A DNA stretch of 39,317 nt, from IMG/VR virus record IMGVR_UViG_3300050010_000571, positions 1 through 39,317 of that record. The stretch is one strand, 5' to 3'. This document shows, piece after piece, positions 21,654 to 37,998 of this stretch. The position numbers were made by a program, and so were the translations under genes. The DNA is from a virus. A model generated the notes under the pieces. The model was not told the DNA's origin, ran no database searches, and saw nothing but the letters and a program-made list of their open reading frames with translations. Every line of letters begins with the position of its first letter. Position 1 is the first letter of the stretch.

Positions 21654-21740
21654 TGGCGGTGAACGTAGGAGTCGCACCCAACCCCTTTCGGAGCGCATTG
21701 CTTTCCAAGCAGGCATAGTCACTGGACTATTTCATTCACC
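21654..21740 (-). tRNA. tRNA-Ser(GGA)
   Basis: Acceptor GGTGAAT/GTTCACC, discriminator G, encoded CCA. Anticodon loop TTGGAAA, long variable arm (CTCC-GAAA-GGGG) as expected for Ser. T-loop is TGCGACT; D-loop TCCAGTGA lacks the GG pair. Two inner bases of the anticodon stem mispair. Confidence 0.8.
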
Positions 21741-21761
21741 ATCTTTATTTAAATTTTTTGA

Positions 21762-21899
21762 TTACTCGCGCTTGTAATTTGCACTAAGTTCGACTTCGAC
21801 TTCATCATAATTAAATAAAGGATAATTACGTTGACCGTGATAGTCTCGTTGGGCGAGTCTCAGCCATTCTTTGTGTGCGTCTGAGTTAAACCAGTCCAT
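21762..21899 (-). CDS. Small hypothetical protein, 45 aa
   Basis: ATG at 21899 follows the upstream TAA by 1 nt (TAATATG), so it is coupled to the 21901-22116 gene; the longer frame to 21989 only overlaps that gene. Product starts MDWFNSDAHKEWLRLAQRDY and is polar and charged. Function unknown. Confidence 0.5.
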   Translation of the reverse strand: MDWFNSDAHKEWLRLAQRDYHGQRNYPLFNYDEVEVELSANYKRE

Positions 21900-21900
21900 A

Positions 21901-22116
21901 TTAGTTAGTGATAGTAATCTGTTCACTCCACCAAGCGTCAGGAATTTCGTAAAAATATAGTGGCTTGCGCTCTTTAAATGAAGCATCACATAGTATTTGC
22001 TTTTTACCTAAAGCCCCGTCCATGACTACTACCATGTGTAATCCACTACTTTCTGCAAATTTGAGCAGATAGTACCCATTTTCTGTGGGCGGTGTTTTGG
22101 ACATTTTAATTTCCAT
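21901..22116 (-). CDS. Hypothetical protein, 71 aa
   Basis: Begins MEIKMSKTPPTENGYYLLKF, with valine-rich strands (GLHMVVVMDGALG) and a WW pair near the end (DAWWSEQ). This looks like a small beta protein in which ENGYYLLK resembles phage proteins for which 'what the user sees' PP-x-NGxY motifs are common. A TGTAAT lies 9 nt before the ATG. Function not recognised. Confidence 0.55.
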   Translation of the reverse strand: MEIKMSKTPPTENGYYLLKFAESSGLHMVVVMDGALGKKQILCDASFKERKPLYFYEIPDAWWSEQITITN

Positions 22117-22132
22117 ACACCATCTATTACAC

Positions 22133-22519
22133 TTATTTCTTACTTAACGCCATTGCACTTAACCAAAGAGTATGAAGATTCATAAAATGAGCGATCTCAA
22201 ATATGGGAATACAGCCCTCATAAATTTCATGACCCAGCAGATCATAATGACCAACAAACTGTTGCACAATCGCGGGGACAAAGTGAAAAAAGAACGGTTC
22301 TTGCCAAATACGATTATTATCCCAGACAGCCAAACCATGCACCTTATGAATATAAAAGTGGCCCGTTTGATCTGGATACCGAAAAGAATTATCGTAAGAG
22401 TTGAAAATCCGAACTTTGTAAATATGTTTCATTCTCCATACATTACCAAAAACTTGTTCGTTTGACAATGGGGTGTTCTCCGTATGGCGGCAGTAATAGG
22501 GATTCCACCTATGCTCCAT
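22133..22519 (-). CDS. Hypothetical protein, 128 aa
   Basis: ATG at 22519 is preceded at 8 nt by GGAGG, one of the few clear Shine-Dalgarno sites in the window. A second Met at residue 30 (MKHIYKVRIF) could also start. Rich in His, Phe, Tyr and Trp, with no signal peptide or clear motif. Function unknown. Confidence 0.55.
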   Translation of the reverse strand: MEHRWNPYYCRHTENTPLSNEQVFGNVWRMKHIYKVRIFNSYDNSFRYPDQTGHFYIHKVHGLAVWDNNRIWQEPFFFHFVPAIVQQFVGHYDLLGHEIYEGCIPIFEIAHFMNLHTLWLSAMALSKK

Positions 22520-22550
22520 TTCTGAAACCTCCGTTTTCGAGACGGGTACA

Positions 22551-22625
22551 TTAGTTCTCTGTCATACTGCCAACAAAATGAAGTTCGGCATGGCAATTAG
22601 CACAGATTAAAATACTTGACAATAC
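22551..22625 (-). pseudogene. HNH endonuclease C-terminal fragment
   Basis: The minus strand reads ILICANCHAELHFVGSMTEN then stop. CANCHxELH is the second zinc/HNH block of phage HNH enzymes (compare LLCANCHRGIH at 12861-13280). The rest of the gene is missing. Confidence 0.5.
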
Positions 22626-22634
22626 TCACAACAT

Positions 22635-22853
22635 TTATCTATGCTTCAGACAGCGGATATGACTATCTTCCGTCACCATAACAAAAGGTTTACCATTATG
22701 ATAATCACGAATTGGAAACCATTCATGACAATCGTCGCATTGTTCAATACAAGCGTTATTGGCGTAATACGTCATATCATCAAGGGACAAATCATATTGA
22801 GGAAGCGAAGATTCTAAGTGTTCTCCGTTAATAATAATGGTATTATTAATCAT
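22635..22853 (-). CDS. Small zinc-finger-like hypothetical protein, 72 aa
   Basis: Contains CIEQCDDCHEWFPIRDYHNG and a final HIRCLKHR; the CxxxCxxC and CxxH spacing suggests one zinc site. Overlaps the upstream gene by ATGA-type junction (22850-22853). Function unknown. Confidence 0.6.
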   Translation of the reverse strand: MINNTIIINGEHLESSLPQYDLSLDDMTYYANNACIEQCDDCHEWFPIRDYHNGKPFVMVTEDSHIRCLKHR

Positions 22854-23098
22854 GCTATTTGATCGGTAATCGGAGACTTGTCATTGCGATCCTTCAAAAA
22901 CTGTTTAAAACTTGGGGCAAATTTTCCACGATACTTAAACAAATCACCGCAGATTTTTTTCCATTCGCGACGAGCCACTCCGTGATTAAAACGATTAATT
23001 TTGATACCGTTGGATTGTGGTTTTCCCTTTTTTTCCGCTTCCACGTCACCAGCAATTTGAGTTACAGCCAATTCTGTTACTTGAGTCTGTTCTTGCAT
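22850..23098 (-). CDS. Hypothetical protein directly behind tRNA-Thr, 82 aa
   Basis: The open frame reaches 23134, but that part is inside tRNA-Thr(GGT). The start is ATG 23098 (MQEQTQVTEL), 2 nt after the encoded CCA of the tRNA (CCA-TT-ATG). The C-terminal half is basic with REWKKICGDLFKYRGKFAPS. tRNA 3' processing would leave a leaderless message. Function unknown. Confidence 0.6.
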   Translation of the reverse strand: MQEQTQVTELAVTQIAGDVEAEKKGKPQSNGIKINRFNHGVARREWKKICGDLFKYRGKFAPSFKQFLKDRNDKSPITDQIA

Positions 23099-23100
23099 AA

Positions 23101-23176
23101 TGGAGCCGTTAGCTGGAATTGCACCAGCCCTCACAAACCTACCAAGTTTGGCCCTCGCTTTCTAGGGGTTAACGGC
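23101..23176 (-). tRNA. tRNA-Thr(GGT)
   Basis: Seven-bp acceptor GCCGTTA/TAACGGC, discriminator T, encoded CCA. Anticodon stem CAAAC/GTTTG, loop TTGGTAG. Perfect T-stem GCTGG/CCAGC around loop TGCAATT; D-loop AGAAAGCG. Followed after 2 nt by the ATG of the next gene. Confidence 0.92.
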
Positions 23177-23306
23177 ATATCTAGCATGTAATTCTCTATG
23201 ACATCTACAACACAAAAGAATACATTTTTCTGCCTCTTTTAAGGCTTTTTCGTCAGTAGAGTTCAACAACTCTTTTATACTTGAATTTCGGGAACTTGCA
23301 TACTAA
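23163..23306 (-). pseudogene. HNH endonuclease C-terminal remnant, cut by a mini-element
   Basis: Reading from the edge of the 143-bp element gives RNSSIKELLNSTDEKALKEA, then EKCILLCCRCHRELHARY and a stop inside tRNA-Thr. CILLCxxCHRxxH matches the C-terminal HNH block at 12861-13280. The 5' part is gone: the element at 23307 sits at the break. Confidence 0.65.
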
Positions 23307-23449
23307 GTCAACAACACCTACCCTAAAGGGATAGGTGCTTGAACGGCCCCGAGGAGCGGGGACTTATATTCATTTGGCGTATTGACTGACGCCTGCCCAT
23401 AAGTCAGATTTGATGTCTGTGATACGGGATGTTTGGACATTTTACCAAT
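23307..23449 (-). mobile_element. 143-bp tnpB-derived mini-element, copy 1
   Basis: Identical over its whole length to the 3' end of the tnpB element at 37999-39187 (coding end, then right-end hairpin GCACCTATCCC/GGGTAGGTG, then GTTGTTGAC). On its left border stands TTCAT (23450-23454). It holds only the region expected to encode the TnpB guide RNA; the sequence beyond GTTGAC (the HNH remnant) would be the guide. Confidence 0.85.
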
Positions 23450-23453
23450 ATGA

Positions 23454-23519
23454 AGCCGCATCCAACATCGCAGTTGGCATTCTCGGGTACGAGACGAGAG
23501 CAGGAACTTTCATGCGGCT
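23454..23519 (-). tRNA. tRNA-like remnant
   Basis: Acceptor AGCCGCA/TGCGGCT and a T-arm CCAAC-TGCGAT-GTTGG are clear, but the anticodon arm (TCTCG/CGAGA) has an oversized loop and the D-arm is short. The 3' end runs into TTCAT of the mini-element instead of CCA. Anticodon unclear. Confidence 0.5.
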
Positions 23520-23525
23520 TTGAAA

Positions 23526-23966
23526 CTAGGGATGAAGCTTCAAGTTTCCAATCACTTTCTGGCATTCATTTTTTTCACCAAAAACGAAACTGCAAGTTAG
23601 TTGACTAACAAAAATCGTAGTCTGATTAAAATCAACTATCCTTGGTGATACTTCCCGCTTTAAGTCAAAAAAAGCAGCAACATCATTTGGCACTCTATAA
23701 CCGTATTCAGGGTCAATGACCATACCGTATAGTAGATCAGGATGTTCACGATGGGTGCGTGAAACAGAATTGATATCGTCCAACGATGCCGTTAAAACAA
23801 CCGCTGTACCAAAACCATTCTTGGTTTCTCTCTGCCATTCTTTGACGCTATCAAATTTTCCAAACTGGTAAATAAACTGATTCGACGCATGAGAAGCTTG
23901 TGCCATCGCCCGACCCGCATTCATGTTGCTGAGGTCAGCCCGCATTAAAATATACAAGACTTTCAT
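23526..23966 (-). CDS. PTH2-like peptidyl-tRNA hydrolase, 146 aa
   Basis: The frame opens at 24014, but ATG 23966 (MKVLYILMRADL) is preceded by AGGAGGTCAA, the strongest Shine-Dalgarno in the window. NAGRAMAQASHASN near residue 20 corresponds to the GKxxAQxxHA helix of archaeal/eukaryal-type PTH2, followed by the TAVVLTASLDDI strand and a Pro-Glu-Tyr-Gly-loop. PTH2 cleaves peptidyl-tRNA to recycle tRNA, fitting a genome with its own tRNAs. Catalytic details of phage members are unproven. Confidence 0.7.
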   Translation of the reverse strand: MKVLYILMRADLSNMNAGRAMAQASHASNQFIYQFGKFDSVKEWQRETKNGFGTAVVLTASLDDINSVSRTHREHPDLLYGMVIDPEYGYRVPNDVAAFFDLKREVSPRIVDFNQTTIFVSQLTCSFVFGEKNECQKVIGNLKLHP

Positions 23967-23974
23967 TTGACCTC

Positions 23975-24184
23975 CTACGTGATAATTGTTGGAGGAGTGT
24001 AAGGAGTTAGACATTTTGCACAGAAAAGAACCTGTGTAGGAATGACTTCTGACTTACCTGTACCAGACAAAATTGCACTTACTCCACGGAGTTTTGCTCC
24101 AATTTGGAATACTGTACAGCCGCACGGACATGCGACTTCGGTAGTATCAGATAGCTTGATTTGTGGTTGTTGTGGTGTTTCCAT
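23975..24184 (-). CDS. Small zinc-ribbon protein, 69 aa
   Basis: CPCGCTVF near residue 19 and LFCAKCLTPY near residue 53 form a two-CxxC zinc ribbon. Its last codons contain the ribosome site of the PTH2-like gene. Function unknown; similar tiny ribbons are common in phages. Confidence 0.65.
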   Translation of the reverse strand: METPQQPQIKLSDTTEVACPCGCTVFQIGAKLRGVSAILSGTGKSEVIPTQVLFCAKCLTPYTPPTIIT

Positions 24185-24185
24185 A

Positions 24186-24365
24186 TTATTGTAAATTAAA
24201 AGTTTTTAAAACGATTGTAAAGACAATGGCAAAGATCATTAGACCACCGATTATCCAACAATTTGTTCGGAAGTTTTTTTTATTTTGAGCTTCTTGTTCC
24301 AAGAGGGCGAAATATTCGGATTCTTGGACTATCCTGTTTGATGTCTCGTCGTCGAGATTTGTCAT
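24186..24365 (-). CDS. Small single-TM protein, 59 aa
   Basis: Charged N-terminal helix (MTNLDDETSNRIVQESEYF) followed by one hydrophobic segment (CWIIGGLMIFAIVFTIVL) and a short tail. It has a consensus promoter (24372-24400). Probably an inner-membrane peptide with its N-terminus in the cytoplasm; function unknown. Confidence 0.65.
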   Translation of the reverse strand: MTNLDDETSNRIVQESEYFALLEQEAQNKKNFRTNCWIIGGLMIFAIVFTIVLKTFNLQ

Positions 24366-24371
24366 GATTCA

Positions 24372-24400
24372 ATATTAAGTGGAATTTGTTTGTTTGTCAA
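24372..24400 (-). promoter_or_regulatory. Sigma70-like promoter, leaderless geometry
   Basis: TTGACA (24400-24395), 17-nt spacer, TAATAT (24377-24372), 6 nt (TGAATC), then ATG at 24365. The box overlaps the last codons of a homing-endonuclease remnant. Confidence 0.88.
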
Positions 24401-24526
24401 ATCAATTTATTATGTTTACAAATTAATTTACAATATTTAAAAAATTGTTCTGTAGAAAATTCTTGTTTCATTCGGTTGAGGTATTTGTGAACCCACTGGA
24501 CATTACCTTCAATGTAACAAATGATA
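24397..24526 (-). pseudogene. Homing endonuclease C-terminal fragment
   Basis: Reads CYIEGNVQWVHKYLNRMKQE and FFKYCKLICKHN before the stop. GNVQWVxxxxNxMK plus FxxxC is the C-terminal block of the enzyme at 14107-14682. Only the end remains, abutting the glycosyltransferase stop. Confidence 0.6.
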
Positions 24527-25416: not shown

Positions 25417-25436
25417 ATTGAACTTGCAGCTTTAAT

Positions 25437-25780
25437 GTCAACGACATCTAGGCTAAAGCCGTAGATGCTTGTAATACTGATTTGGATAAAACCAAACAAG
25501 ATTTACATACGTTTAGCCGATTGACAACGGCTTGCCCGTCAAGCAAATTTCCTTGCGAGATGGGGAGTTTTGATAGTTTAGCTATATTTATAGCCGCGTT
25601 AATATCACTATCATAGATAAGTCCTGATTTAGCATAAAACCTGCGACCCTTACGCTCACCTTCAACTTTACCAGTAATGGAATCTGTCTTGGATGTATTA
25701 TAAGGACAAACTAAAAGAACCGTTTTGCCTTGGTTCTCTGCCTTGTAGGTTAGTATGCGTCTAAGTTCAAATAAATGAAC
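25437..25780 (-). mobile_element. 344-bp tnpB-derived element, copy 1
   Basis: Base-for-base identical to 28074-28417. It carries a truncated tnpB 3' end (FELRRILTYKAENQGKTVLL ... YDSDINAAINI) and a right-end hairpin (CATCTA/TAGATG) ending GTTGAC. The left border is TTCAT, which here is also the 3' end of tRNA-Arg(CCT). About 80 codons remain, including RuvC-III; the protein is not functional alone. Confidence 0.85.
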
Positions 25781-25848
25781 GCACTAGGATTTGCACCTAG
25801 AACTAAGGTTTAGGAAACCCACATGATTTCTAATTTCACCATGCGTCC
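25776..25848 (-). tRNA. tRNA-Arg(CCT)
   Basis: Acceptor GGACGCA/TGCGTTC, discriminator A, no CCA because the 344-bp element begins at its TTCAT end. Anticodon loop TTCCTAA. T-stem CTAGG/CCTAG, loop TGCAAAT. D-arm GTGA-AATTAGAAA-TCAT. Confidence 0.82.
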
Positions 25849-25951: not shown

Positions 25952-26027
25952 TGGTAGACCTATCAGGAATCGCACCCGAATATCCAATTTAGAAAAATGG
26001 CACTCTGTCTATTTGAGTTACGAGAAC
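25952..26027 (-). tRNA. tRNA-Arg(TCT)-like, acceptor not paired
   Basis: D-stem ACTC/GAGT, anticodon loop TTTCTAA, T-arm TCGGG-TGCGATT-CCTGA and encoded CCA are present. The 3' acceptor TAGGTCT does not pair with the 5' side (GTTCTCG). It looks like a chimera or decayed copy. Confidence 0.55.
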
Positions 26028-26048: not shown

Positions 26049-26126
26049 TGGCGACCATACTCGGAATCCCACCGAGACTTACTGTTTAGAAGACAGTCGT
26101 GATTGTAATTTCATTTTTCGCTTACT
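26049..26126 (-). tRNA. tRNA-Arg(TCT)-like, second copy, 5' side replaced
   Basis: Anticodon arm ACTGT-CTTCTAA-ACAGT and T-arm CTCGG-TGGGATT-CCGAG are perfect and CCA is encoded. The 5' acceptor does not match; that stretch can also be read as the tail of the broken frame behind 26175-26267. Probably not functional. Confidence 0.5.
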
Positions 26127-26174
26127 ACGAACTTTAAAATGGTCAGGGTCCATTTGACGATCAAAAGCTTCCCA

Positions 26175-26269: not shown

Positions 26270-26349
26270 TGGTAGCCGCAGAGGGAATTGCACCCACATG
26301 AATCTAATTACTCTTTCTCTTGGTTAGAAGCCAAAGGAGATACGCGGCC
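26270..26349 (-). tRNA. tRNA-Arg(TCT), D-arm missing or rebuilt
   Basis: Acceptor GGCCGCG/TGCGGCT, encoded CCA, anticodon arm TTTGG-CTTCTAA-CCAAG, T-arm GTGGG-TGCAATT-CCCTC. Only 7 nt lie between acceptor and anticodon arm, and about 20 nt between anticodon and T-arm. TCTC/GAGA could alternatively form a large D-arm enclosing the anticodon hairpin. Confidence 0.6.
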
Positions 26350-26698: not shown

Positions 26699-26775
26699 TG
26701 GAGTTCAGTAGTGGTGCTGCCCCACTCAATTAATCGCTTTGCAGGCGAACCCGTTCGCTGGCTCGGTCACTGAAC
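26699..26775 (-). tRNA. tRNA-Cys(GCA)
   Basis: Acceptor GTTCAGT/ACTGAAC, discriminator T (typical of Cys), encoded CCA. Anticodon loop CTGCAAA. D-stem CCG/CGG with loop AGCCAGCGAA. T-stem AGTGG/CCACT with the unusual loop GGCAGCA. Confidence 0.88.
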
Positions 26776-27620: not shown

Positions 27621-27706
27621 TGGTGGGCATGATAGGATTTGCACCTACACGATCTTACGACCACAAGACCCTCAATCTTGCGCGGCTTCTATTACGCCAC
27701 ATGCCC
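27621..27706 (-). tRNA. tRNA-Leu(GAG)
   Basis: Acceptor GGGCATG/CATGCCC, discriminator A, encoded CCA. Anticodon stem CAAGA/TCTTG, loop TTGAGGG. Class II variable arm (GGTC-GTAA-GATC). T-loop TGCAAAT, D-loop containing AGAAGC. The GIY-YIG gene's ATG follows after 2 nt. Confidence 0.9.
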
Positions 27707-28061: not shown

Positions 28062-28073
28062 ATTTGGGTCTAA

Positions 28074-28417
28074 GTCAACGACATCTAGGCTAAAGCCGTA
28101 GATGCTTGTAATACTGATTTGGATAAAACCAAACAAGATTTACATACGTTTAGCCGATTGACAACGGCTTGCCCGTCAAGCAAATTTCCTTGCGAGATGG
28201 GGAGTTTTGATAGTTTAGCTATATTTATAGCCGCGTTAATATCACTATCATAGATAAGTCCTGATTTAGCATAAAACCTGCGACCCTTACGCTCACCTTC
28301 AACTTTACCAGTAATGGAATCTGTCTTGGATGTATTATAAGGACAAACTAAAAGAACCGTTTTGCCTTGGTTCTCTGCCTTGTAGGTTAGTATGCGTCTA
28401 AGTTCAAATAAATGAAC
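28074..28417 (-). mobile_element. 344-bp tnpB-derived element, copy 2
   Basis: Identical to 25437-25780. Left border TTCAT again; here it lies at the right end of another tnpB remnant (28418-28655), so one element inserted next to another. The right end GTTGAC faces the 27729-28061 gene, whose sequence would serve as guide. Confidence 0.85.
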
Positions 28418-29142: not shown

Positions 29143-29220
29143 TGGCAGTGCTGGCGGGATTTGCACCCAGCGTTGCTATCGTGACAGGATAGCCGATGAA
29201 ACATACTCTCTTACAGCACT
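29143..29220 (-). tRNA. tRNA-Asp(GTC), copy 1
   Basis: Acceptor AGTGCTG/CAGCACT, discriminator G, encoded CCA. Anticodon stem CTATC/GATAG, loop CTGTCAC. T-loop TGCAAAT. Confidence 0.85.
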
Positions 29221-29275
29221 AAACCGATTTCTTTCAAAATCACATAAACTTGGCATTTTGTCAATACTGAATTTT

Positions 29276-29361
29276 TGGTCGCTGCGGGGAGATTTGCACT
29301 CCCAAGGTCGTATCATTTTGAGTGATATGCTTCTTCTAATTTCGCTTTCGGCCACGCAGCG
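29276..29361 (-). tRNA. tRNA-Leu(CAA)
   Basis: Acceptor CGCTGCG/CGCAGCG, discriminator A, encoded CCA. Anticodon arm TATCA-CTCAAAA-TGATA. Variable loop short (about 6 nt) while the D region is long. T-stem GGGAG/CTCCC, loop TGCAAAT. Confidence 0.8.
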
Positions 29362-29385
29362 TTTTTCTATGGCAATGCAGACAAA

Positions 29386-29654: not shown

Positions 29655-29730
29655 TGGTAGGGTCATTGGCACTTGCAGCCAAATTCAAAGCTTGAGAAGC
29701 TCTAGTCCTTTCTACTTAGACGATGGCCCC
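29655..29730 (-). tRNA. tRNA-Glu(CTC)
   Basis: Acceptor GGGGCCA/TGACCCT (one mismatch), discriminator A, encoded CCA. Anticodon arm AGAGC-TTCTCAA-GCTTT, D-stem GTC/GAC, T-arm TTGGC-TGCAAGT-GCCAA. The next gene's ATG follows 2 nt after CCA. Confidence 0.82.
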
Positions 29731-31274: not shown

Positions 31275-31367
31275 TGGCGGAAGCAGGGGGAATTGCACCC
31301 ACGCTGGTTTTTGAGGCCAGATTTGTTTAGCAAACAAACGCGACAAACTGACATTCGCCTTACTTCC
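31275..31367 (-). tRNA. tRNA-Ser(GCT)
   Basis: Acceptor GGAAGTA/TGCTTCC, discriminator G, encoded CCA. Anticodon arm TTTGT-TTGCTAA-ACAAA, long variable arm CTGG/CCAG, T-loop TGCAATT. Confidence 0.88.
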
Positions 31368-31524
31368 ATTTGGTCCCAACTCTCGGTTTCGCGCCGAGCT
31401 ATTATGTGCTTCAAACATACGCTTTCACTAGATTAGCTTAGTTGGGAAACAGTTTCACCGCAGCCCAACACTGGGCGCATTATTTTTTCTAAGCCAAAGG
31501 CGATACTTGGCGCGGCTACTAAAT

Positions 31525-31805: not shown

Positions 31806-31844
31806 CGCTTGCAACAGGAATCGAACCTGTGTCTTCTGTTTGGT
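31806..31844 (-). tRNA. 3' part of a tRNA interrupted by the 143-bp element
   Basis: A canonical T-arm ACAGG-TTCGATT-CCTGT and acceptor-like TGCAAGC remain. The 5' part would lie beyond the element at 31845-31987, where GGTAC-TTCAT borders it. The isotype cannot be determined. Confidence 0.5.
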
Positions 31845-31987
31845 GTCAACAACACCTACCCTAAAGGGATAGGTGCTTGAACGGCCCCGAGGAGCGGGGA
31901 CTTATATTCATTTGGCGTATTGACTGACGCCTGCCCATAAGTCAGATTTGATGTCTGTGATACGGGATGTTTGGACATTTTACCAAT
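31845..31987 (-). mobile_element. 143-bp tnpB-derived mini-element, copy 2
   Basis: Identical to 23307-23449 and to the 3' end of the element at 37999-39187. TTCAT stands at its left border (31988-31992). Beyond GTTGAC the guide position reads ACCAAACAGAAGACACAGGT, i.e. tRNA sequence leading into the T-loop. Confidence 0.85.
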
Positions 31988-32020
31988 ATGAAGTACCTGT
32001 AACCTACACTACGTCAAATC

Positions 32021-32094
32021 TGGTGCGCCCTCGGGGTAACGCTCCCCGTTCAATAAATTAAAAGTTTATTGCATCACTTTAATGCTTGAGGCGC
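32021..32094 (-). tRNA. tRNA-Lys(TTT)
   Basis: Acceptor GCGCCTC/AGGGCGC (one mismatch), discriminator A, encoded CCA. D-arm GCAT-TAAAGTG-ATGC, anticodon arm ATAAA-CTTTTAA-TTTAT, T-arm CGGGG-AGCGTTA-CCCCG. Confidence 0.85.
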
Positions 32095-32683: not shown

Positions 32684-32758
32684 TGGAGCCGTATGTAAGA
32701 ATTGCACTTACTTAAACCTTTTTACAAGAAAGGGCATCACTAACAATGTTTATACGGC
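32684..32758 (-). tRNA. tRNA-Thr(TGT)
   Basis: Acceptor GCCGTAT/ATACGGC, discriminator T, encoded CCA, all very close to tRNA-Thr(GGT). Anticodon arm CCTTT-CTTGTAA-AAAGG. T-arm GTAAG-TGCAATT-CTTAC. Confidence 0.9.
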
Positions 32759-32838: not shown

Positions 32839-32914
32839 TGGAGCATAGGACGGGATTCGCACCCGCGTAAAGCAGTTTGGAAGACTGCCGCCTGAACTTC
32901 TAGGCTACCTATGC
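32839..32914 (-). tRNA. tRNA-Gly(TCC)
   Basis: Acceptor GCATAGG/CCTATGC, discriminator T, encoded CCA. D-stem GCCT/AGGC with loop AGAAGTTC, anticodon arm GCAGT-CTTCCAA-ACTGC, T-arm GCGGG-TGCGAAT-CCCGT. Confidence 0.93.
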
Positions 32915-33090: not shown

Positions 33091-33164
33091 TGGTGGCCTC
33101 GGAGGGAATTTCGCCCACAACCTTTCCCACATCAAGGGAATACTCTGAATTGAGTTACGAGGCC
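33091..33164 (-). tRNA. tRNA-Ile(GAT), copy 1
   Basis: Acceptor GGCCTCG/CGAGGCC, discriminator A, encoded CCA. D-stem ACTC/GAGT with a short loop (AATTCA), anticodon arm TTCCC-TTGATGT-GGGAA, T-loop CGAAATT, which is neither canonical nor the xGC type. Confidence 0.82.
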
Positions 33165-33187: not shown

Positions 33188-33261
33188 TGGTCGTCCATGA
33201 AAGTAATGCTCTTTCTTTTACGCCTTATCAAGACGTTACTTTACTTTTAAGTTAATAGACG
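33188..33261 (-). tRNA. tRNA-Ile(GAT), copy 2
   Basis: Acceptor CGTCTAT/ATGGACG, discriminator A, encoded CCA. D-arm ACTT-AAAAGTA-AAGT, anticodon arm ACGTC-TTGATAA-GGCGT, T-arm GAAAG-AGCATTA-CTTTC. Confidence 0.85.
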
Positions 33262-33347: not shown

Positions 33348-33439
33348 TGGTACTCCTGCTTGGACTTAAACCAAGACTCGGCACTAATCTGGTGCGCCTA
33401 GTTTATAAAACTAGCGATGCTTTATTACATCACAGGAGC
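33348..33439 (-). tRNA. Class II tRNA with anticodon TAT
   Basis: Acceptor GCTCCTG/CAGGAGT, discriminator A, encoded CCA, D-arm GATG-TAATAAAG-CATC, anticodon arm CTAGT-TTTATAA-ACTAG. A long variable arm (GCAC/GTGC) is unusual for Ile(TAT); it may be a derived Leu/Ser-type tRNA. T-arm CTTGG-TTTAAGT-CCAAG. Confidence 0.7.
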
Positions 33440-34104: not shown

Positions 34105-34107
34105 TTA

Positions 34108-34179
34108 TGGCTCAAGTGGTTATCGCATCCACATCTGCGGGGTTTCAAGCCGCTGCTAATCTATTTCAGCTATTGAGCC
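34108..34179 (-). tRNA. tRNA-Phe(GAA)
   Basis: Acceptor GGCTCAA/TTGAGCC, discriminator A, no encoded CCA. D-stem GCT/AGC, anticodon arm GCGGC-TTGAAAC-CCCGC with one closing mismatch, T-arm GTGGA-TGCGATA-ACCAC. Confidence 0.72.
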
Positions 34180-34185: not shown

Positions 34186-34264
34186 TGGTGCAGGAGGCGA
34201 GGGTTGCGCTCGCGTTATTTCCCGCCCCAAACGGGATGCCATAACCTCACTAGGCGACTCCTAC
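34186..34264 (-). tRNA. tRNA-Pro(TGG), copy 1
   Basis: Acceptor GTAGGAG/CTCCTGC, discriminator A, encoded CCA. D-loop TAGTGAGGTTAT keeps GG, unlike most others. Anticodon arm TCCCG-TTTGGGG-CGGGA, T-arm GCGAG-CGCAACC-CTCGC. Confidence 0.85.
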
Positions 34265-34274: not shown

Positions 34275-34331
34275 TGGTCGGAATGACTTCTGTACCCAAA
34301 ACAGACGCGATAAACACTACGCTACATTCCG
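34275..34331 (-). tRNA. tRNA-Pro(TGG), copy 2, lacking a T-arm
   Basis: Acceptor CGGAATG/CATTCCG with C1-G72 and ACCA end as in bacterial tRNA-Pro. D-stem GCG/CGC and anticodon arm TCTGT-TTTGGGT-ACAGA are intact, but only AGT lies between anticodon arm and acceptor. Length 57 nt with CCA. Confidence 0.65.
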
Positions 34332-34382: not shown

Positions 34383-34407
34383 AAAAATTTAAAACTTTTC
34401 AAAAAAA

Positions 34408-34481
34408 TGGTGCGGGTTGGTGGTAATGCTCCACCTTTACTTGGGTGTAGGCCAAGTGTTATGCTTCTCTACTAAACCCGC
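34408..34481 (-). tRNA. tRNA-Val(TAC) with C33
   Basis: Acceptor GCGGGTT/AACCCGC, discriminator A, encoded CCA. Anticodon arm CTTGG-CCTACAC-CCAAG: the universally conserved U33 is C. T-arm GGTGG-AGCATTA-CCACC, D-loop containing AAGCA. Confidence 0.82.
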
Positions 34482-34493
34482 TTTTCTTTTCCG

Positions 34494-34730
34494 TTATTTT
34501 TGTATGCGGCGATAATTTTGACGCCAAACAGCATCGGTGATTACGTTTGCTGAATCTACCACGGCTTGTTCACTTAAGTCGGGAAAACAAGCATGGAGAC
34601 ACTCATGAATTAACGTATCGAGATATTCTTTAGAATTTTGGCGAGGGTCTATTTCAATCAGATCACCGATTTGCTGTCCCAAATTTCCTTCTCGTCCCAG
34701 CTTCCTTTCAACGATTTTGACACGCTTCAT
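34494..34730 (-). CDS. Small zinc metallopeptidase-like protein, 78 aa
   Basis: TLIHECLHACFPDLSE contains HExxH (HECLH) on a helix with downstream acidic residues, as in small SprT/ImmA-like phage proteins. IEIDPRQNSKEYLDTL before it is the usual strand-helix lead-in. ATG 34730 is 7 nt after a TGTAAT and 19 nt after the CCA of tRNA-Leu(TAG). Role unknown; ImmA-like peptidases cleave repressors. Confidence 0.72.
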   Translation of the reverse strand: MKRVKIVERKLGREGNLGQQIGDLIEIDPRQNSKEYLDTLIHECLHACFPDLSEQAVVDSANVITDAVWRQNYRRIQK

Positions 34731-34749
34731 GTCTTGAATTACACTGTTT

Positions 34750-34826
34750 TGGTAGCGACGGAGGGATTTGCACCCACACTGCCATGTTCCTAAGACATGT
34801 GACTCCTTCTGTTGGTCTACGTCGCC
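34750..34826 (-). tRNA. tRNA-Leu(TAG)
   Basis: Acceptor GGCGACG/CGTCGCT, discriminator A, encoded CCA. Anticodon arm CATGT-CTTAGGA-ACATG. Variable loop only about 5 nt (GCAGT), atypical for Leu. T-arm GTGGG-TGCAAAT-CCCTC. Confidence 0.85.
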
Positions 34827-34901
34827 ATTAATTTATTTTGATGAGGACAAATTTCTTCTTGCATATAGGTAGTTATACATAAAAGCTACCTAATGGGATG
34901 A

Positions 34902-34978
34902 TGGTAGCCCCTGCCGTGGTTGCAACGGCACTGTAATCCTCTTAAGGGATTTGTCTCCTGCTCTTGGACTAAGGGGCC
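34902..34978 (-). tRNA. tRNA-Leu(TAA)
   Basis: Acceptor GGCCCCT/AGGGGCT, discriminator A, encoded CCA. Anticodon arm AATCC-CTTAAGA-GGATT. Short variable loop (ACAGT). T-arm GCCGT-TGCAACC-ACGGC. Confidence 0.88.
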
Positions 34979-34980
34979 AT

Positions 34981-35040
34981 TAAATTTTTTTCCAATTTTT
35001 TGTCTTATAATTTGGAGTTAAAGCATGACAATTTGGACAT
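34981..35040 (-). pseudogene. HNH endonuclease C-terminal fragment
   Basis: Reads CPNCHALTPNYKTKNWKKI then stop; CPNCHxLTxxYKxxN is the usual C-terminus of phage HNH homing enzymes. It begins at the 3' end of tRNA-His, where the rest of the gene is missing. Confidence 0.6.
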
Positions 35041-35114
35041 GGTCAGGTAGTTGGTATTCGCAACCAAACAAATTCTTTCACAAAGAATGATGCTACTATT
35101 ACATCACGTACCTG
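35041..35114 (-). tRNA. tRNA-His(GTG)
   Basis: Acceptor CAGGTAC/CTACCTG (inner pair mismatched), discriminator A, encoded CCA. D-arm GATG-TAATAGTAG-CATC, anticodon arm ATTCT-TTGTGAA-AGAAT, T-arm TTGGT-TGCGAAT-ACCAA. The usual His C73 is not seen. Confidence 0.82.
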
Positions 35115-35142
35115 ATAAAAAGTACAACAGTTAAGTTGTACT
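35115..35142 (-). terminator. Rho-independent terminator
   Basis: Perfect 8-bp stem AGTACAAC/GTTGTACT with a 6-nt loop, followed on the minus strand by five T. It ends the transcript of the 52-aa gene and isolates tRNA-His. Confidence 0.85.
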
Positions 35143-35169
35143 GGGGCAACTTTGCCTCCACCACTTGCT

Positions 35170-35328
35170 TTAAGAAGCAAGAAATTCTCGAACACGATCA
35201 ATTTCAGTCGTATCGCCTTTACCATAAGCAATCAAAGCTCGCATAGTAGATTCTCTACCTTGCCAACTCATTGGTTTCTCAGGTGGGAAAATCGAATCCC
35301 ATATTTCACTAAAACGTTCGTATTTCAT
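35170..35328 (-). CDS. Small protein behind tRNA-Arg(GCG), 52 aa
   Basis: ATG 35328 lies 2 nt after the CCA of tRNA-Arg (CCA-AT-ATG). The sequence MKYERFSEIWDSIFPPEKPM and ALIAYGKGDTTEIDRVREF is protein-like and ends shortly before a terminator. Function unknown. Confidence 0.6.
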   Translation of the reverse strand: MKYERFSEIWDSIFPPEKPMSWQGRESTMRALIAYGKGDTTEIDRVREFLAS

Positions 35329-35330
35329 AT

Positions 35331-35414
35331 TGGTGATCGTGAAAGGAGTTGCACCTTCATTTTCAGAATCTATTTACGGATATTTGCTTCGCAAGCAAAC
35401 TCGACTACACGACC
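35331..35414 (-). tRNA. tRNA-Arg(GCG), D-arm reduced
   Basis: Acceptor GGTCGTG/CACGATC, discriminator A, encoded CCA. Anticodon arm TTTGC-TTGCGAA-GCAAA starts only 8 nt after the acceptor, leaving no D-stem; about 22 nt separate it from T-arm GAAGG-TGCAACT-CCTTT. Start codon of the next gene follows CCA by 2 nt. Confidence 0.7.
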
Positions 35415-35416
35415 AT

Positions 35417-35492
35417 TGGCGGAATAGATGGGACTTGAACCCACTAATGTCTGCGCGACAGGCAGATGATTCGACTCTTTATCTTCTATTCC
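35417..35492 (-). tRNA. tRNA-Asp(GTC), copy 2, canonical T-loop
   Basis: Acceptor GGAATAG/CTATTCC, discriminator G, encoded CCA. Anticodon arm TCTGC-CTGTCGC-GCAGA. T-arm GTGGG-TTCAAGT-CCCAT: one of very few with the normal TTC. Confidence 0.9.
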
Positions 35493-35545
35493 AATGCTAC
35501 TTAAAATGTTTTTCACCAAATAAAATCTTCAAACCAATTTATAAA

Positions 35546-35620
35546 TGGTGGGCAACCTCGGAATCTCACCGAGAACTAAAGTTCCGAAGACTATTGTGAT
35601 TATAATTTCACCAGTCGCCC
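35546..35620 (-). tRNA. tRNA-Arg(TCG)
   Basis: Acceptor GGGCGAC/GTTGCCC, discriminator A, encoded CCA. D-arm GTGA-AATTATAA-TCAC, anticodon loop CTTCGGA with one stem mismatch, T-arm CTCGG-TGAGATT-CCGAG. Confidence 0.82.
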
Positions 35621-35704
35621 AAAAAAGCCAGAATCTGACTTGTAATATTGGCTCCCGTTCCTCCAAACTTACAAAAATTTACATTCATAGTTTTAATACG
35701 TAAG

Positions 35705-36010
35705 TAAATTTCCCGTTGGATTCCTTTTTCAACGACGGGCTAAAATCGTTCGTTACCGAACAATCTGAACTCCCATCTCCCATCTCCCAAGGCGTAATTT
35801 CCCGTCGAACTGACGGTAGAAAGTTTCAAAAGATTTTTAGAGGCGTTCAAGTCTCTGTCAATCTCACTCTTGCAAATCTCACACTTGAAAACTCTATCTT
35901 TCAAGGTAAGACTATCGTTTTTCCATCCGCAACACGAACAAGTCTTGCTGGAAGGATAGAAAGTATCAGCAATTATGATTTCACGACCATACCCCATAGC
36001 AGAATTAACC
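35705..36010 (-). pseudogene. tnpB C-terminal fragment of a fourth family
   Basis: Encodes IIIADTFYPSSKTCSCCGWK, then KCEICKSEIDRDLNASKNLL: four-Cys zinc ribbon and RuvC-III. The 5' part stops within NSAMGYGRE. A right-end-like hairpin (CCCGT/CGGG) lies at 35710-35745. Non-functional as a protein. Confidence 0.72.
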
Positions 36011-36072
36011 TATCTGCAAAAGGCGCGGGAGGCAACCATCAAGAATTAACTGGCACTAACTATCTCACAAAC

Positions 36073-36148
36073 TGGTGGACCAGCAGGGTAACGCTCCCTG
36101 TCCTACGCATTGCAAATGCGTCGTGCTAACTTTTATCACTACAAGCCC
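36073..36148 (-). tRNA. tRNA-Ala(TGC)
   Basis: Acceptor GGGCTTG/CTGGTCC (one mismatch, two wobbles), discriminator A, encoded CCA. Anticodon arm ACGCA-TTTGCAA-TGCGT, T-arm CAGGG-AGCGTTA-CCCTG. Confidence 0.82.
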
Positions 36149-36201
36149 AGATTCGCGGAACAAATGACTCAAGTATTTTTCACACAAGAAGTAACTCGAA
36201 T

Positions 36202-36645
36202 CTACACCAGCGAAATTGTTTTCGGCCAAGGAATCACACCTTTGCCGTCACTAATTACATTTGTAACCAGACTGCTTGGCGATTGGCTATCACCTTTGCC
36301 AATACGGAAGCTATCATCCTCAAAATGTTGAGTAGATACTTCAAAAATCTCTCCTTCAATCAGACATGTTAGTTGATGAGGTTGCCCTTGCGGAATGTGA
36401 ATTACGTCGCCTGATTGAAGCTTTCTGCCTTGCTTTTCAGCGTTTGTCGTATCGAAATAATCCAAATAAAATAAACCTTTTGAAACGAACCAAGTTTCCT
36501 CTTTCTTCACATGAAAGTGAAAACTAAACTTGGCGTGTTGATTGAACTGTAGGATTTTTCCACAGTACAAAGTACCGTTACGAATCCACAACTCGCGACC
36601 CCAAGCCTTTTCGTGAATCTCTGGTTTGTAAAACTCAATGCCCAT
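36202..36645 (-). CDS. Cupin protein, sugar-phosphate-isomerase type, 147 aa
   Basis: HEKAWGRELWI, HFHVKKEETWFV (metal HxH...E), GDVIHIPQGQPHQL and EVSTQHFEDDS-RIGKGD give the cupin order seen in mannose-6-phosphate isomerase/GDP-mannose pyrophosphorylase-type cupins. Start ATG 36645 is 3 nt after the CCA of tRNA-Ser(TGA) (CCA-ATT-ATG); the frame extends into the tRNA. The last 30 residues after KGDSQ look like an added tail. It may shape surface sugars or nucleotide-sugar supply. Confidence 0.8.
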   Translation of the reverse strand: MGIEFYKPEIHEKAWGRELWIRNGTLYCGKILQFNQHAKFSFHFHVKKEETWFVSKGLFYLDYFDTTNAEKQGRKLQSGDVIHIPQGQPHQLTCLIEGEIFEVSTQHFEDDSFRIGKGDSQSPSSLVTNVISDGKGVIPWPKTISLV

Positions 36646-36648
36646 AAT

Positions 36649-36739
36649 TGGCGGTAAGCTAAGGTCACGCTCCCTATGCGGGTTTAAGCCGCACCACCCG
36701 ATTTCAAGTCGGAGACGAGTCTTACTCGTTAAACTTACC
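36649..36739 (-). tRNA. tRNA-Ser(TGA)
   Basis: Acceptor GGTAAGT/GCTTACC, discriminator G, encoded CCA. Anticodon arm TCCGA-CTTGAAA-TCGGG, variable arm TGCGG/CCGCA, T-arm TAGGG-AGCGTGA-CCTTA. The cupin ATG follows 3 nt after CCA. Confidence 0.88.
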
Positions 36740-36870
36740 ATTTGTTTTCAATTTCCCGTTGAAATAGCGGTTCATGTTGAACCCAAGTCGAAACTTGAAA
36801 GTCATCAAACGATTATTTGATTCAGAATGTTACGCCTGTTAGACTCAAGCTACATACAATGTGAGATTTA

Positions 36871-36924
36871 CGGAAGACTGAGGTATTGCACCACATCACC
36901 TATTTAGGGGAAATTTAATCTTCC
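36871..36924 (-). tRNA. Short tRNA-like, one arm missing
   Basis: Acceptor GGAAGAT/GTCTTCC and T-arm TGTGG-TGCAATA-CCTCA are clear; only 22 nt lie between them, with at most a weak CC/GG-closed anticodon-like loop (CCTAAAT). No CCA. Confidence 0.45.
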
Positions 36925-36932
36925 ATTTACGG

Positions 36933-37003
36933 GATTACTGTCTTACTAATCCAAGAATCTACGGATTTTACCATGTGGCTAAACGATACCCGCGACGTTT
37001 ATT
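36933..37003 (-). tRNA. tRNA-like, possibly Glu(TTC), T-arm decayed
   Basis: A D-arm with normal AGCC...TGGTA and an AATCC/GGATT stem with an enlarged loop containing TTC are visible. Acceptor pairs in five positions; the T-arm is not recognisable. Confidence 0.35.
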
Positions 37004-37010
37004 TAAAAAA

Positions 37011-37096
37011 TGGTGGTCGCAGAAGGAATTGCACCCACGAAGCCGTTAGGCGGCGCATTTACAGTGCGCTGTATTTGCTACTATACGAATACGACC
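37011..37096 (-). tRNA. tRNA-Tyr(GTA)
   Basis: Acceptor GGTCGTA/TGCGACC, discriminator A, encoded CCA. Anticodon arm GCGCA-CTGTAAA-TGCGC, class II variable arm (GCCG/CGGC) as in bacterial Tyr. T-arm GTGGG-TGCAATT-CCTTC. Confidence 0.9.
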
Positions 37097-37285
37097 ATTA
37101 AAATTATCCCAGAGACCGAAATGTTTTATGGGAAAATTAAACGAGTTTTTAGGCAGGTTTGCTCGTTGCCCTACTACTGATACGCTTCTATTCTCAAGAA
37201 GAACCTCTAGTTGAGAACAAACTAGAACTGCTTTTCGTTCAGCGAAATTGCAGGGCGGGTATACTCGTCATCCGCCCGTAAAGGC
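37097..37285 (-). other. Structured gap with several hairpins
   Basis: No intact gene of useful length. Hairpins ACGAG/CTCGT, CTAGTT/AACTAG and GGGCGG/CCGCCC follow one another. One frame entering from the next tRNA-like piece reads MRKPLRADDEYTRPAISLNE then stops. A structured RNA or decayed tRNAs are possible. Confidence 0.35.
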
Positions 37286-37345
37286 TTTCTCATAAGGACT
37301 CGAACCTTAATCTCTTTTAACAATGCTCAATTAGACCATGAGAAA
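37286..37345 (-). tRNA. Short tRNA-like with canonical T-arm
   Basis: Acceptor TTTCTCA/TGAGAAA and T-arm TAAGG-TTCGAGT-CCTTA are clear, but only 26 nt lie between them, so one arm is missing. GTT in the remaining loop could be an Asn anticodon. Confidence 0.45.
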
Positions 37346-37612
37346 ATTTTAGGGGAACAAACGACCCAAGTGTTTTTTCTCGAATAGAGAAGTAACTCAA
37401 ATCTACACCGCCTAATGTTTTCAGCTAAGGAATCGCACCTTTGTATTATACCCGCTATACATTGCGGACTGAGACTCACGTAACTATTAAAGGTGACTAA
37501 TTCCTTCTACGCCGATACAAATGCAAAGTCTTCTAAGCATACTAGACTCGTCAAGTCTTCACCTTTGCCGTCACTAATTACATTTGTAACCAGACTGTTT
37601 GGCGATTGTCGT
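37346..37612 (-). repeat. Diverged partial duplicate of the cupin gene's 3' end
   Basis: 37352-37432 matches 36157-36240 (region after the cupin stop plus its last codons) with substitutions, and 37559-37610 matches 36235-36288 almost exactly. About 125 bp of unrelated sequence (37433-37558) separates the two parts. It suggests duplication with insertion. Confidence 0.65.
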
Positions 37613-37639
37613 ATTGTCTTGCAGCTAACGCTACTGAAA

Positions 37640-37715
37640 TGGCAGGACGGAAGGGGGTCGCACCCTTATCTCTCGTTTTGGAGACGACTATGTTAACTAT
37701 TACACCACTCATCCT
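37640..37715 (-). tRNA. tRNA-Trp(CCA)
   Basis: Acceptor AGGATGA/CCGTCCT (one mismatch), discriminator G, encoded CCA, as in bacterial Trp. Anticodon loop CTCCAAA, T-arm AAGGG-TGCGACC-CCCTT. Confidence 0.82.
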
Positions 37716-37817
37716 ATTTACTTTTCCCAAAACAGTAAAACGAATGTAATAGCTATTAATTCGTATAGAAAAGTTTTTAACTGATTATTTTGAATCAACA
37801 ATTAAACCAATTTTAAT

Positions 37818-37895
37818 TGGTAGCTGACGGCGGGCCTTTATCCACTTATACGCATTTTCAGTATCCGCGTTATGAGCGCGGCAAGACTATTTTTC
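37818..37895 (-). tRNA. tRNA-Met(CAT)-like, degenerate
   Basis: A perfect anticodon arm CCGCG-CTCATAA-CGCGG and a 3' GTCAGCT-A-CCA are present. No matching 5' acceptor and no normal T-arm are visible, so the gene may be damaged. Confidence 0.4.
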
Positions 37896-37909
37896 TTCAC
37901 GCAGCATCG

Positions 37910-37998
37910 CTCCGAAGGCTGGACCTGCCCCAGCATACCGTTTTCACGGAATACACGAAATTAACAGTTTCGCCGCTTACTAATTAGCGTACCTCGGA
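37910..37998 (-). tRNA. tRNA-Asn(GTT), copy 2, long variable arm
   Basis: Acceptor TCCGAGG/CTTCGGA, discriminator G, no CCA. D-arm CGCT-AATTAGTA-AGCG, anticodon arm CGAAA-CTGTTAA-TTTCG, an unusual 21-nt variable arm with CCG/CGG, and T-arm GCTGG-GGCAGGT-CCAGC. The tnpB element begins at its first base. Confidence 0.8.

Follow-up and report, generated by a model that had tools for sequence, protein, structure and literature searches.

Sequences support an A18–G55 pair swap at the elbow of a phage tRNA set and of bacterial tRNA arrays

Introduction

Among the described systems that resemble the locus reported here are the tRNA sets of jumbo phages, which also combine many tRNAs with RlaP, cREC, an RNA ligase and TROVE, and which have been proposed to be substitutes for cleaved tRNAs (PMC7824862); the accessible part of that work describes no change of the elbow. 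Phage tRNAs that evade anticodon nucleases are similar in that they are altered such that host enzymes fail, but their changes are in the anticodon loop, whereas in the set studied here the elbow is changed, in nearly every isotype (PMC10264068). Mycobacterium and Anabaena have tRNA array units that share with the present loci the dense arrays, the HNH neighbours and, in cluster C phages, PTH2, and the Anabaena array is expressed under stress along with rtcB (PMC5966550, PMC10272220). The rsr-yrlBA-rtcBA operon is also alike, having RtcB and Ro60 relatives and being part of a damaged-tRNA response (PMC7790460), but the bacterial loci described below add a full tRNA array, HNH and a FliA-like sigma factor.

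No earlier report of an A18/G55 elbow was found in the literature searched, which covered few subscription journals. In nearly every tRNA the L shape is closed by G18–U55, and this G18–Ψ55 pair is regarded as invariable in cytosolic tRNA; alternative elbow pairs have reportedly been obtained in selections of suppressor tRNAs with randomised D- and T-loops. Ψ55 has been termed universally conserved (PMC4810234).

Results and discussion

The tRNA genes of the window

The window is the whole stretch of DNA that was analysed, 39,317 nt of IMG/VR virus record IMGVR_UViG_3300050010_000571. Its tRNA-like genes were curated by hand on the minus strand between 21,656 and 37,998 (Table 1). There are 36 tRNA-like genes, and since one has no T-arm, 35 T-loops can be compared. 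G55 is present in 33 of these, with 29 xGC loops (exactly the count given in the preliminary description), two xGA loops (Arg-UCG and the Ile-GAU copy at 33091) and two xGG loops (Ser-CGA and Arg-UCU at 26049). Two genes keep U55, with TTC in Asp at 35417 and TTT in Ile-UAU at 33348. Most of the 36 genes have the regular cloverleaf (7-bp acceptor stem, 5-bp anticodon and T stems, U33 and CCA); besides the T-armless gene, the exceptions are two genes in which no D-arm can be recognised, the Val gene with its C33, and a few genes that do not encode CCA.

Table 1. Features of the window, with loop sequences of the tRNA genes.
Feature	Coordinates	Strand	T-loop	D-loop	Remarks
RlaP-family RNA-repair nucleotidyltransferase	8122..8922	-			48.3 bits, cut-off 23
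HNH protein	11470..12630	-			type adjoining set-wide G55 arrays; split by intein, about residues 125-304
cREC cyclic-phosphate receiver domain	20410..20952	-			46.4 bits, cut-off 27
tRNA-Ser(GGA)	21656..21742	-	TGCGACT		
tRNA-Ser(CGA)	22485..22571	-	TGGAATC	GAGAACTAA	A18 C19, G55 G56; 19-56 compensated
tRNA-Thr(GGU)	23101..23176	-	TGCAATT	AGAAAGCG	
PTH2-like peptidyl-tRNA hydrolase	23526..24014	-			
tRNA-Arg(CCU)	25773..25848	-	TGCAAAT	AATTAGAAA	
tRNA-Arg(UCU) copy	25952..26027	-	TGCGATT		
tRNA-Arg(UCU)	26049..26135	-	TGGGATT	AATTACAA	A18 C19, G55 G56; 19-56 compensated; 5' boundary uncertain
tRNA-Cys(GCA)	26699..26775	-	GGCAGCA	AGCCAGCGAA	
tRNA-Leu(GAG)	27621..27706	-	TGCAAAT		
tRNA-Asp(GUC) copy 2	29143..29220	-	TGCAAAT		
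tRNA-Leu(CAA)	29275..29362	-	TGCAAAT		
tRNA-Glu(CUC)	29655..29730	-	TGCAAGT	AAGTAGAAA	
tRNA-Ser(GCU)	31275..31367	-	TGCAATT		
tRNA-Phe(GAA)	31371..31446	-	CGCGAAA	AATCTAGTGAA	
tRNA-Lys(UUU)	32021..32094	-	AGCGTTA	TAAAGTG	
tRNA-Thr(UGU)	32684..32758	-	TGCAATT		
tRNA-Gly(UCC)	32839..32914	-	TGCGAAT	AGAAGTTC	top score of set
tRNA-Ile(GAU)-like	33091..33164	-	CGAAATT		G55 A56
tRNA-Ile(GAU)	33188..33261	-	AGCATTA	AAAAGTA	
tRNA-Ile(UAU)	33348..33439	-	TTTAAGT		exception, U55; A19-U56 possible; long variable arm
tRNA-Phe(GAA) copy 2	34105..34179	-	TGCGATA		without CCA
tRNA-Pro(UGG)	34186..34264	-	CGCAACC		
tRNA-Val(UAC)	34408..34481	-	AGCATTA		C33
tRNA-Leu(UAG)	34750..34826	-	TGCAAAT		short variable loop
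tRNA-Leu(UAA)	34902..34978	-	TGCAACC		short variable loop
tRNA-His(GUG)	35040..35114	-	TGCGAAT	..TAATAGTAG..	
tRNA-Asp(GUC) copy 1	35417..35492	-			exception, TTC
tRNA-Arg(UCG)	35546..35620	-	TGAGATT	AATTATAA	A18 U19, G55 A56; 19-56 compensated
tRNA-Ala(UGC)	36073..36148	-	AGCGTTA	ATAAAAGTTAG	G3-U70 kept
tRNA-Ser(UGA)	36649..36739	-	AGCGTGA	AGTAAGAC	
tRNA-Tyr(GUA)	37011..37096	-	TGCAATT		
tRNA-Trp(CCA)	37640..37715	-	TGCGACC	..ATAGTT..	
tRNA-Asn(GUU)-like	37907..37998	-	GGCAGGT	AATTAGTA	long variable arm

The register of the T-arm was examined with register-free scans, in which T-stem, loop and acceptor are sought and the T-loop sequence is left free. These scans and the Rfam covariance alignments agree in placing G at position 55, as first described, and no neighbouring register gives TTC; a shift cannot restore TTC because the letters are absent from the sequence. 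At the gathering score with permissive filters Rfam finds 18 of the window genes, and ARAGORN just 12 of about 35.

The preliminary description had reported a change of the T-loop. The G55 is real, but A18 in place of G18 in the D-loops, and the compensated 19–56 pairs, had gone unnoticed. With G18 replaced by A18 and U55 by G55, the G18–Ψ55 pair became A18–G55, whereas the 19–56 pair is kept, mostly as G–C, and covaries (G–C, U–A, C–G). The sequences thus strongly support a pair swap at the elbow.

That this is a set-wide rewiring and not one mutation holds true, since the isotypes keep their own stems and discriminator bases (G73 in Asp, Asn and Gln, U73 in Cys), and Ala keeps G3–U70 (5/5). 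At these positions the swapped-elbow tRNAs retain the identity elements for aminoacylation. Tandem duplication of a single A18–G55 founder, followed by anticodon changes, would be a simple account of the uniformity, but it is highly improbable: outside the elbow, the nearest canonical tRNA is one for the same amino acid for 8.2 of 18 window tRNAs, against 1.1 expected, with identities to the same-isotype canonical tRNA of up to 84% (Ala), isotype features are kept, and the isotypes of the window are no more alike than those of canonical viral tRNAs (identity between isotypes 0.36 vs 0.41).

Covariation of the elbow positions

The same dependence is demonstrated by 1,823 tRNAs, mostly from loci other than the window. 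U55C56 occurs with GG in the D-loop in 99% of 1,362 tRNAs, and G55C56 with AG in 96% of 381; the other combinations are UU with GA, UA with GU, UG with GC and GG with AC. The covariation is also found within the TTC-fetched set alone (Fisher p = 7e-27). Homologous Arg-UCG genes include A18C19/G55G56, A18U19/G55A56 and G18U19/U55A56 forms; for these no formal pair count was used, MAFFT having set the D-loop residues out of structural register.

Alongside G55, the commonest 54–58 pair is T–A, with A18 in 96%, and many T-loops have no U54 either (A54–U58, G54–G58). The UGCRA loop together with an A from outside matches, at the level of sequence, the UGNRA T-loop receptor of riboswitches, with its U-G-N-R-A loop, 54–58 closing pair and external A. 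In this receptor, a lonepair triloop that offers a structural precedent, the closing pair is also U–A and the G at loop position 2 is contacted by the intercalated outside A; it differs in being known from riboswitches and other RNAs, with no tRNA elbow described in these sources (PMC2258182, PMC11363276).

Distribution of A18–G55 tRNAs

In viral loci fetched with the TTC pattern, G55 is found in only 17 of 478 tRNAs (3.6%), so the 33 of 35 in the window is not chance; A18–G55 accounts for about 4% of the tRNAs in these clusters. The G55 fraction is 67–88% in phage relatives (L494–L498), and G55 also predominates in viral contigs L499 (10/10), L544 (18/20), L548 (25/29), L560 (9/10) and L566 (15/18). 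The change had been described as a phage trait, but it extends beyond phages: A18–G55 is also set-wide in chromosomal tRNA arrays within a single class of Verrucomicrobia type. One such chromosome (G104) has an array with G55 in 27 of 27 tRNAs, packed within 3.6 kb and adjoining HNH, whereas 29 of 30 housekeeping tRNAs are GG/TTC; this dense cluster with its HNH companion, apart from the housekeeping tRNAs, is a tRNA array unit. Descent from the bacterial arrays was considered for the window set and rejected, its tRNAs being no nearer to those arrays than to canonical viral tRNAs, in a comparison of reference sets of unequal size. No close relatives were found in IMG/VR via the NAMPT protein, and megablast against phage records found none either.

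Compensated pairs (A18–G55, G18–C55 and others) also occur sporadically throughout phage tRNA clusters, as would be expected if spare tRNAs drift under relaxed selection, with 18–55 and 19–56 drifting together because only pairing matters, and with the set-wide state as a functionless end point. Such drift should give mixtures, yet the per-contig G55 fractions are strongly over-dispersed (chi2 354, 49 df; maximum 103 in 5,000 binomial simulations), most being low and several at 83–100%, and a single state, G55 mostly with A18, is found in 27 of 27 genes. We consider this explanation distinctly unlikely.

By pattern match, the sole clear tRNA-Cys has G55 in seven of nine Patescibacteria and in both Thorarchaeota. 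Because the only tRNA-Cys found in Patescibacteria is of this kind, A18–G55 tRNAs probably work in translation. Conversely, the arrays scanned in Nostoc are about 90% canonical U55, as against nearly all G55 in the arrays found here, and viral contigs L571–L573 have HNH beside tRNAs that are all U55; a tRNA array can therefore persist without G55, which speaks against the replacement set proposed below.

Genes linked to the arrays

The window carries, besides its tRNAs, genes for RlaP, cREC, PTH2 and HNH proteins (Table 1), of which cREC has been tied to RNA repair in jumbo phages (PMC7824862). A relative (G010) has an RNA ligase. RtcB and TROVE were sought in the window and neither was found, and the window holds no capsid or terminase gene. 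The linkage of set-wide G55 to RNA repair is evident from the neighbours of nine bacterial arrays, which include HNH (9/9), RtcB (8/9), LysR (8/9), a sigma factor (7/9), TROVE (Ro60/TROVE, 3/9) and RlaP (3/9). No RtcR was seen beside these arrays, which have LysR and a sigma factor where the rsr-rtcBA operon, with its optional Ro60 and Y RNA, has RtcR as its control. TROVE is also present in three of five viral contigs with G55 and HNH, vs none of 119 TTC-fetched loci.

The HNH gene of the window is about 9 kb from its tRNAs, which stand looser than those of the G104 array. In the HNH region, the H, N and N residues are invariant. One possibility is that selection is at the DNA level: a homing-type HNH would cut ordinary tRNA genes at the motif conserved in their T-arms, the recoded array would stay uncut, and A18 would be a mere repair of the fold. 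This fits the invariant residues, the presence of HNH beside all nine bacterial and several viral arrays, and the finding that HNH genes accompany Mycobacterium tRNA arrays more commonly than any others (PMC5966550). It is nevertheless very unlikely, as at most two tRNAs lie near 72 of the 80 viral HNH loci, three HNH loci have U55 tRNAs, and lone A18–G55 tRNAs occur in many clusters with no HNH in the stretch examined. The idea that HNH strictly marks G55 arrays was also rejected, given the few tRNAs near most viral HNH loci.

Possible function of the swapped elbow

We regard the tRNAs of the window as a near-complete set of a large, jumbo-type phage. The set-wide swap in phage, viral contigs and repair-linked bacterial arrays suggests a spare kit that is read unlike the cell's own tRNAs. 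With moderate confidence, we propose that this is a replacement set for conflicts in which tRNA is damaged, having an elbow that is unusable by enzymes that read G18 and U55. The elbow would have been exchanged isotype by isotype; the T-loop, mostly UGCRA, would act like the UGNRA receptor, A18 intercalating and pairing with G55 at the second position of the loop, and the L would still be capped by the Watson–Crick 19–56 pair. Keeping their acceptor identity features, the phage copies would probably be used in translation and, with the RNA-repair enzymes, serve once the host or phage tRNA pool is damaged.

As U55 is missing, G55 tRNAs are not substrates of TruB, in line with the preliminary description; for TruB and TrmH, the swapped tRNAs would be poor substrates or none, their target bases being absent. 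Loss of these targets and, in many T-loops, of U54 also fits the proposal that independence from elbow modification is the selected trait and nuclease escape is irrelevant: A18–G55 would fold without Ψ55, Gm18 and m5U54, and so allow fast maturation, or function where the host's modification enzymes are missing or occupied. The tRNA-Cys of Patescibacteria and Thorarchaeota, where no tRNA-damage conflict is evident, and the occurrence of the UGNRA receptor in RNAs lacking such modifications (PMC2258182, PMC11363276) point the same way. This proposal is unlikely, however, as it leaves unexplained both the clustering of the set-wide form with RNA repair and the second, rewired set in bacteria with canonical housekeeping tRNAs.

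For the replacement set, tRNA-directed nucleases may also fail on the swapped elbow, such that the tRNAs, being poor or non-substrates for G18/U55 readers, would stay intact or be sorted from cellular tRNAs. We know of no nuclease that needs G18/U55, and the analysis identified none. The tRNA-targeting defences known so far mostly cleave the anticodon loop (PMC10264068), and to these the elbow may be irrelevant. Escape from elbow-reading enzymes, as suggested earlier, is nevertheless plausible, given the repair-gene linkage and the observation that a compensated G18U–U55G swap still abolished TrmK activity (PMC9801127); it is an inference. A doubtful extension is a second elbow code, in which whole A18–G55 sets pass the ribosome and the synthetases but not the elbow-reading enzymes. 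Such sets would have been fixed at least twice, in phages and on bacterial chromosomes, to form an orthogonal reserve, and the element that carries one may also encode an effector that eliminates canonical tRNAs but leaves the element's tRNAs alone.

A natural whole-set swap with matching covariation implies that the elbow can be rewritten with the tRNA probably still working, and it opens to direct testing a long-standing question, namely what use phages and other elements have for the whole tRNA sets that they carry. It also offers a modification-free elbow for the design of orthogonal tRNAs. Many swapped-elbow genes are missed by ARAGORN, a common tRNA finder.

The elbow of the window tRNAs

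The window carries 36 tRNA-like genes on the minus strand, at 21.6-38.0 kb, in which 18 amino acids are represented and no Met or Gln tRNA is seen. Residue 55 is a G in 33 of the 35 T-loops (letters 54-56 are xGC in 29, xGA in two and xGG in two), and the two U55 exceptions are an Asp (TTC) and an Ile-UAU (TTT) gene. The scans required stems and left the T-loop letters free, and they give the same T-arm register as the Rfam alignments, confirming the 29 xGC loops among 35 claimed in the preliminary description. A few pieces said there to keep TTC are indeed tRNA fragments. A stricter scan gives 22 minus-strand matches with scores of 19-31, the top score in four shuffled sequences being 18.4; the tRNA scanner is biased toward genes with an encoded CCA.

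The D-loops of these tRNAs have AG in place of the ordinary GG. This is found in the D-arm of 27 of the 29 xGC genes, and the remaining two lack a recognisable D-arm. Residue 19 shifts along with the lost C56, as seen for Arg-UCG (AATTATAA/TGAGATT, D-loop/T-loop), Arg-UCU (AATTACAA/TGGGATT) and Ser-CGA (GAGAACTAA/TGGAATC), with the second Ile-GAU gene (AATTCA/CGAAATT) being an ambiguous 19-56 case. From the D-loop AG and the tracking of C56 by residue 19, the swap is double and compensated, with 18-55 changed from G-U to A-G and 19-56 still paired, and we regard such an elbow swap in this tRNA set as very likely.

Covariation and distribution

The same coupling is seen among the matches listed from four scans, three by pattern over viral contigs and the fourth over genomes, all blind to the D-loop (1,823 distinct tRNAs, 20 of them from the window; D-loop positions placed by motif, not structure). 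The D-loop dinucleotide tracks T-loop residues 55-56: UC occurs with GG (99%), GC with AG (96%), UU with GA (89%), UA with GU (100%), CC with GG (94%), UG with GC (3/3), GG with AC (4/4) and GA with AU (5/7). Within the viral loci fetched with a TTC pattern alone, the G55/AG association has p = 7e-27, which is only rough because related contigs enter as separate counts. The Arg-UCG homologues of different arrays have three solutions for the same two pairs, one being G18-U55 with U19-A56.

Among the matches listed, G55 occurs in 17 of 478 tRNAs of the TTC-fetched loci, at 1-2 per cluster. In 50 contigs retrieved by patterns that did not ask for G55, the per-contig G55 fractions are far off binomial, being at most 0.20 in 45 and 0.83-1.00 in five, again among the matches listed, which are not an unbiased census. 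Set-wide G55 contigs include the window, its viral relatives G009-G011 and five other viral contigs (L499, L544, L548, L560 and L566). Of these relatives, two have an ATP-grasp protein in common with the window (66%) and one a glycosyltransferase (49% identity). The gene content of G010 (rIIA, rIIB, clamp loader, RNA ligase) shows that the lineage of the window and its relatives is phage. No earlier report of A18-G55 tRNAs was found in the literature searched, which lay mostly outside subscription papers, and a prior report is possible.

Bacterial arrays and their neighbours

The genome scan also gave near-pure G55 tRNA arrays on MAG contigs. Several of these contigs bear the label Opitutaceae or Verrucomicrobia, and the class of the array genomes is taken from the labels of the MAG contigs leading there. 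In one of these genomes (G104, one contig of 5.96 Mb) the array tRNAs are G55 in 27/27 cases and the housekeeping tRNAs GG/TTC in 29 of the 30 examined. Array gene order is alike among several genomes. The arrays have in common an adjoining HNH protein, about 210-230 residues long, and a search of 286 genomes of the Verrucomicrobia-type class separates a high-scoring array-type group from a ubiquitous relative. Over nine array loci the neighbours are HNH (9), LysR (8), RtcB (8), a FliA-like sigma factor (7), TROVE (Ro60) (3), RlaP (3) and, in some, an AAA ATPase. TROVE is present in 3/5 viral G55 contigs with HNH versus 0/119 TTC-fetched viral loci (p = 3e-5; locus lengths unequal), and the window itself has the RNA-repair-linked genes RlaP and cREC. 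In some array tRNAs (Glu-UUC and Leu-CAG, from locus L609 and other arrays) a pyrimidine at 18, not A18, lies opposite G55, as in the D-loops AACCGATCA and GAATGCATA.

Structure, translation and possible role

In the TPP riboswitch, the UGNRA lonepair triloop is a U-G-N-R-A T-loop whose G at position 2 is touched by an intercalated outside A (PMC2258182), and T-loops are adenosine receptors through a trans sugar-edge/Hoogsteen pair to this G (PMC11363276). Position 2 corresponds to residue 55 and the intercalated base to residue 18; G55 and A18 match these positions, so that in the A18-G55 elbow this motif would take its riboswitch form, with the tRNA geometry inferred.

A18-G55 also occurs in tRNA-Cys of Patescibacteria and Thorarchaeota, where a G55 gene is the sole clear tRNA-Cys by pattern in 7/9 and in both genomes, respectively, some genomes being incomplete. 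The array and window tRNAs have sensible discriminator bases, with G3-U70 in 5/5 Ala genes. Because of these two observations, A18-G55 tRNAs likely translate. Apart from the elbow, the window tRNAs look like the canonical tRNAs for their own amino acid, which suggests that the swap was made repeatedly, isotype by isotype, and it probably arose separately in phages and bacteria. Such repetition argues for a selected set-wide state, with moderate evidence from unequal comparison sets (1,352 canonical versus 119 array tRNAs).

Jumbo phages are thought to carry tRNAs and RNA repair against host tRNA attack (PMC7824862). Broken tRNAs trigger RtcB/Ro60 operons (PMC7790460), and in Anabaena a tRNA array and rtcB are under one common repressor, relieved by translational stress (PMC10272220). 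The set probably serves as replacement tRNAs. Enzymes reading G18/U55 would not see a spare set that departs from the cell's tRNAs at these bases; such enzymes exist, since TrmK methylation is abolished by G18U alone and likewise by G18U-U55G (PMC9801127). A destructive enzyme of this kind may be the selecting force, and we give evasion or sorting through the elbow, as the selected benefit, an even chance or slightly less.

Other features of the window

Long-arm Ile-UAU genes are also found at L609:15621-15712, in L613, L361, L544 and others, in unrelated phages and bacterial arrays; among the matches listed, the arm is present in 20/35 census Ile-UAU genes (25 in a wider set) and 1/59 Ile-GAU genes. 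The placing of the TnpB-type pieces would fit insertion of these elements at tRNA genes.

Features of the window and tRNA-Cys genes with G55
Feature	Position or locus	Remark
HNH protein with intein	11470-12630	intein +1 position occupied by the Cys of HNH-domain CQYTG
Radical SAM protein, relative of RlmN/Cfr RNA methyltransferases	14723-15655	score well under family cut-offs
NAMPT, NMNAT-like, two NUDIX, CinA-like, deoxyribosyltransferase-like, cREC, MazG-like	15703-21317	NAD-salvage and nucleotide-handling block of a type usual for anti-defence regions
TnpB-type 3'-end fragments	23300-23460, 25430-25770, 28070-28400, 31840-31990	adjoin other tRNAs or tRNA fragments
tRNA-like genes without recognisable D-arm	26270-26349, 35331-35414	long variable region with TAGATTC
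tRNA-Ile(UAU), named by anticodon	33348-33439	long variable arm of about 22 nt, loop like YAGATKAG
tRNA-Pro-like short gene (57 nt), T-armless	34275-34331	adjoins full tRNA-Pro; either decayed copy or T-armless form
tRNA-Leu(UAG)	34750-34826	5-nt variable loop; ordinary bacterial tRNA-Leu differs
tRNA-Leu(UAA)	34902-34978	5-nt variable loop; ordinary bacterial tRNA-Leu differs
tRNA with Asn anticodon GUU	37907-37998	yet 21-nt variable arm and G73, tRNA-Ser features
Full TnpB-type transposase gene	38010-39155	end adjoins tRNA-Asn
tRNA-Cys(GCA) with G55, Patescibacteria and Thorarchaeota	L308, L358, L262, L254, L279, L351, L319, L249, L317	A18 in scanned D-loops; apparently the genome's only tRNA-Cys
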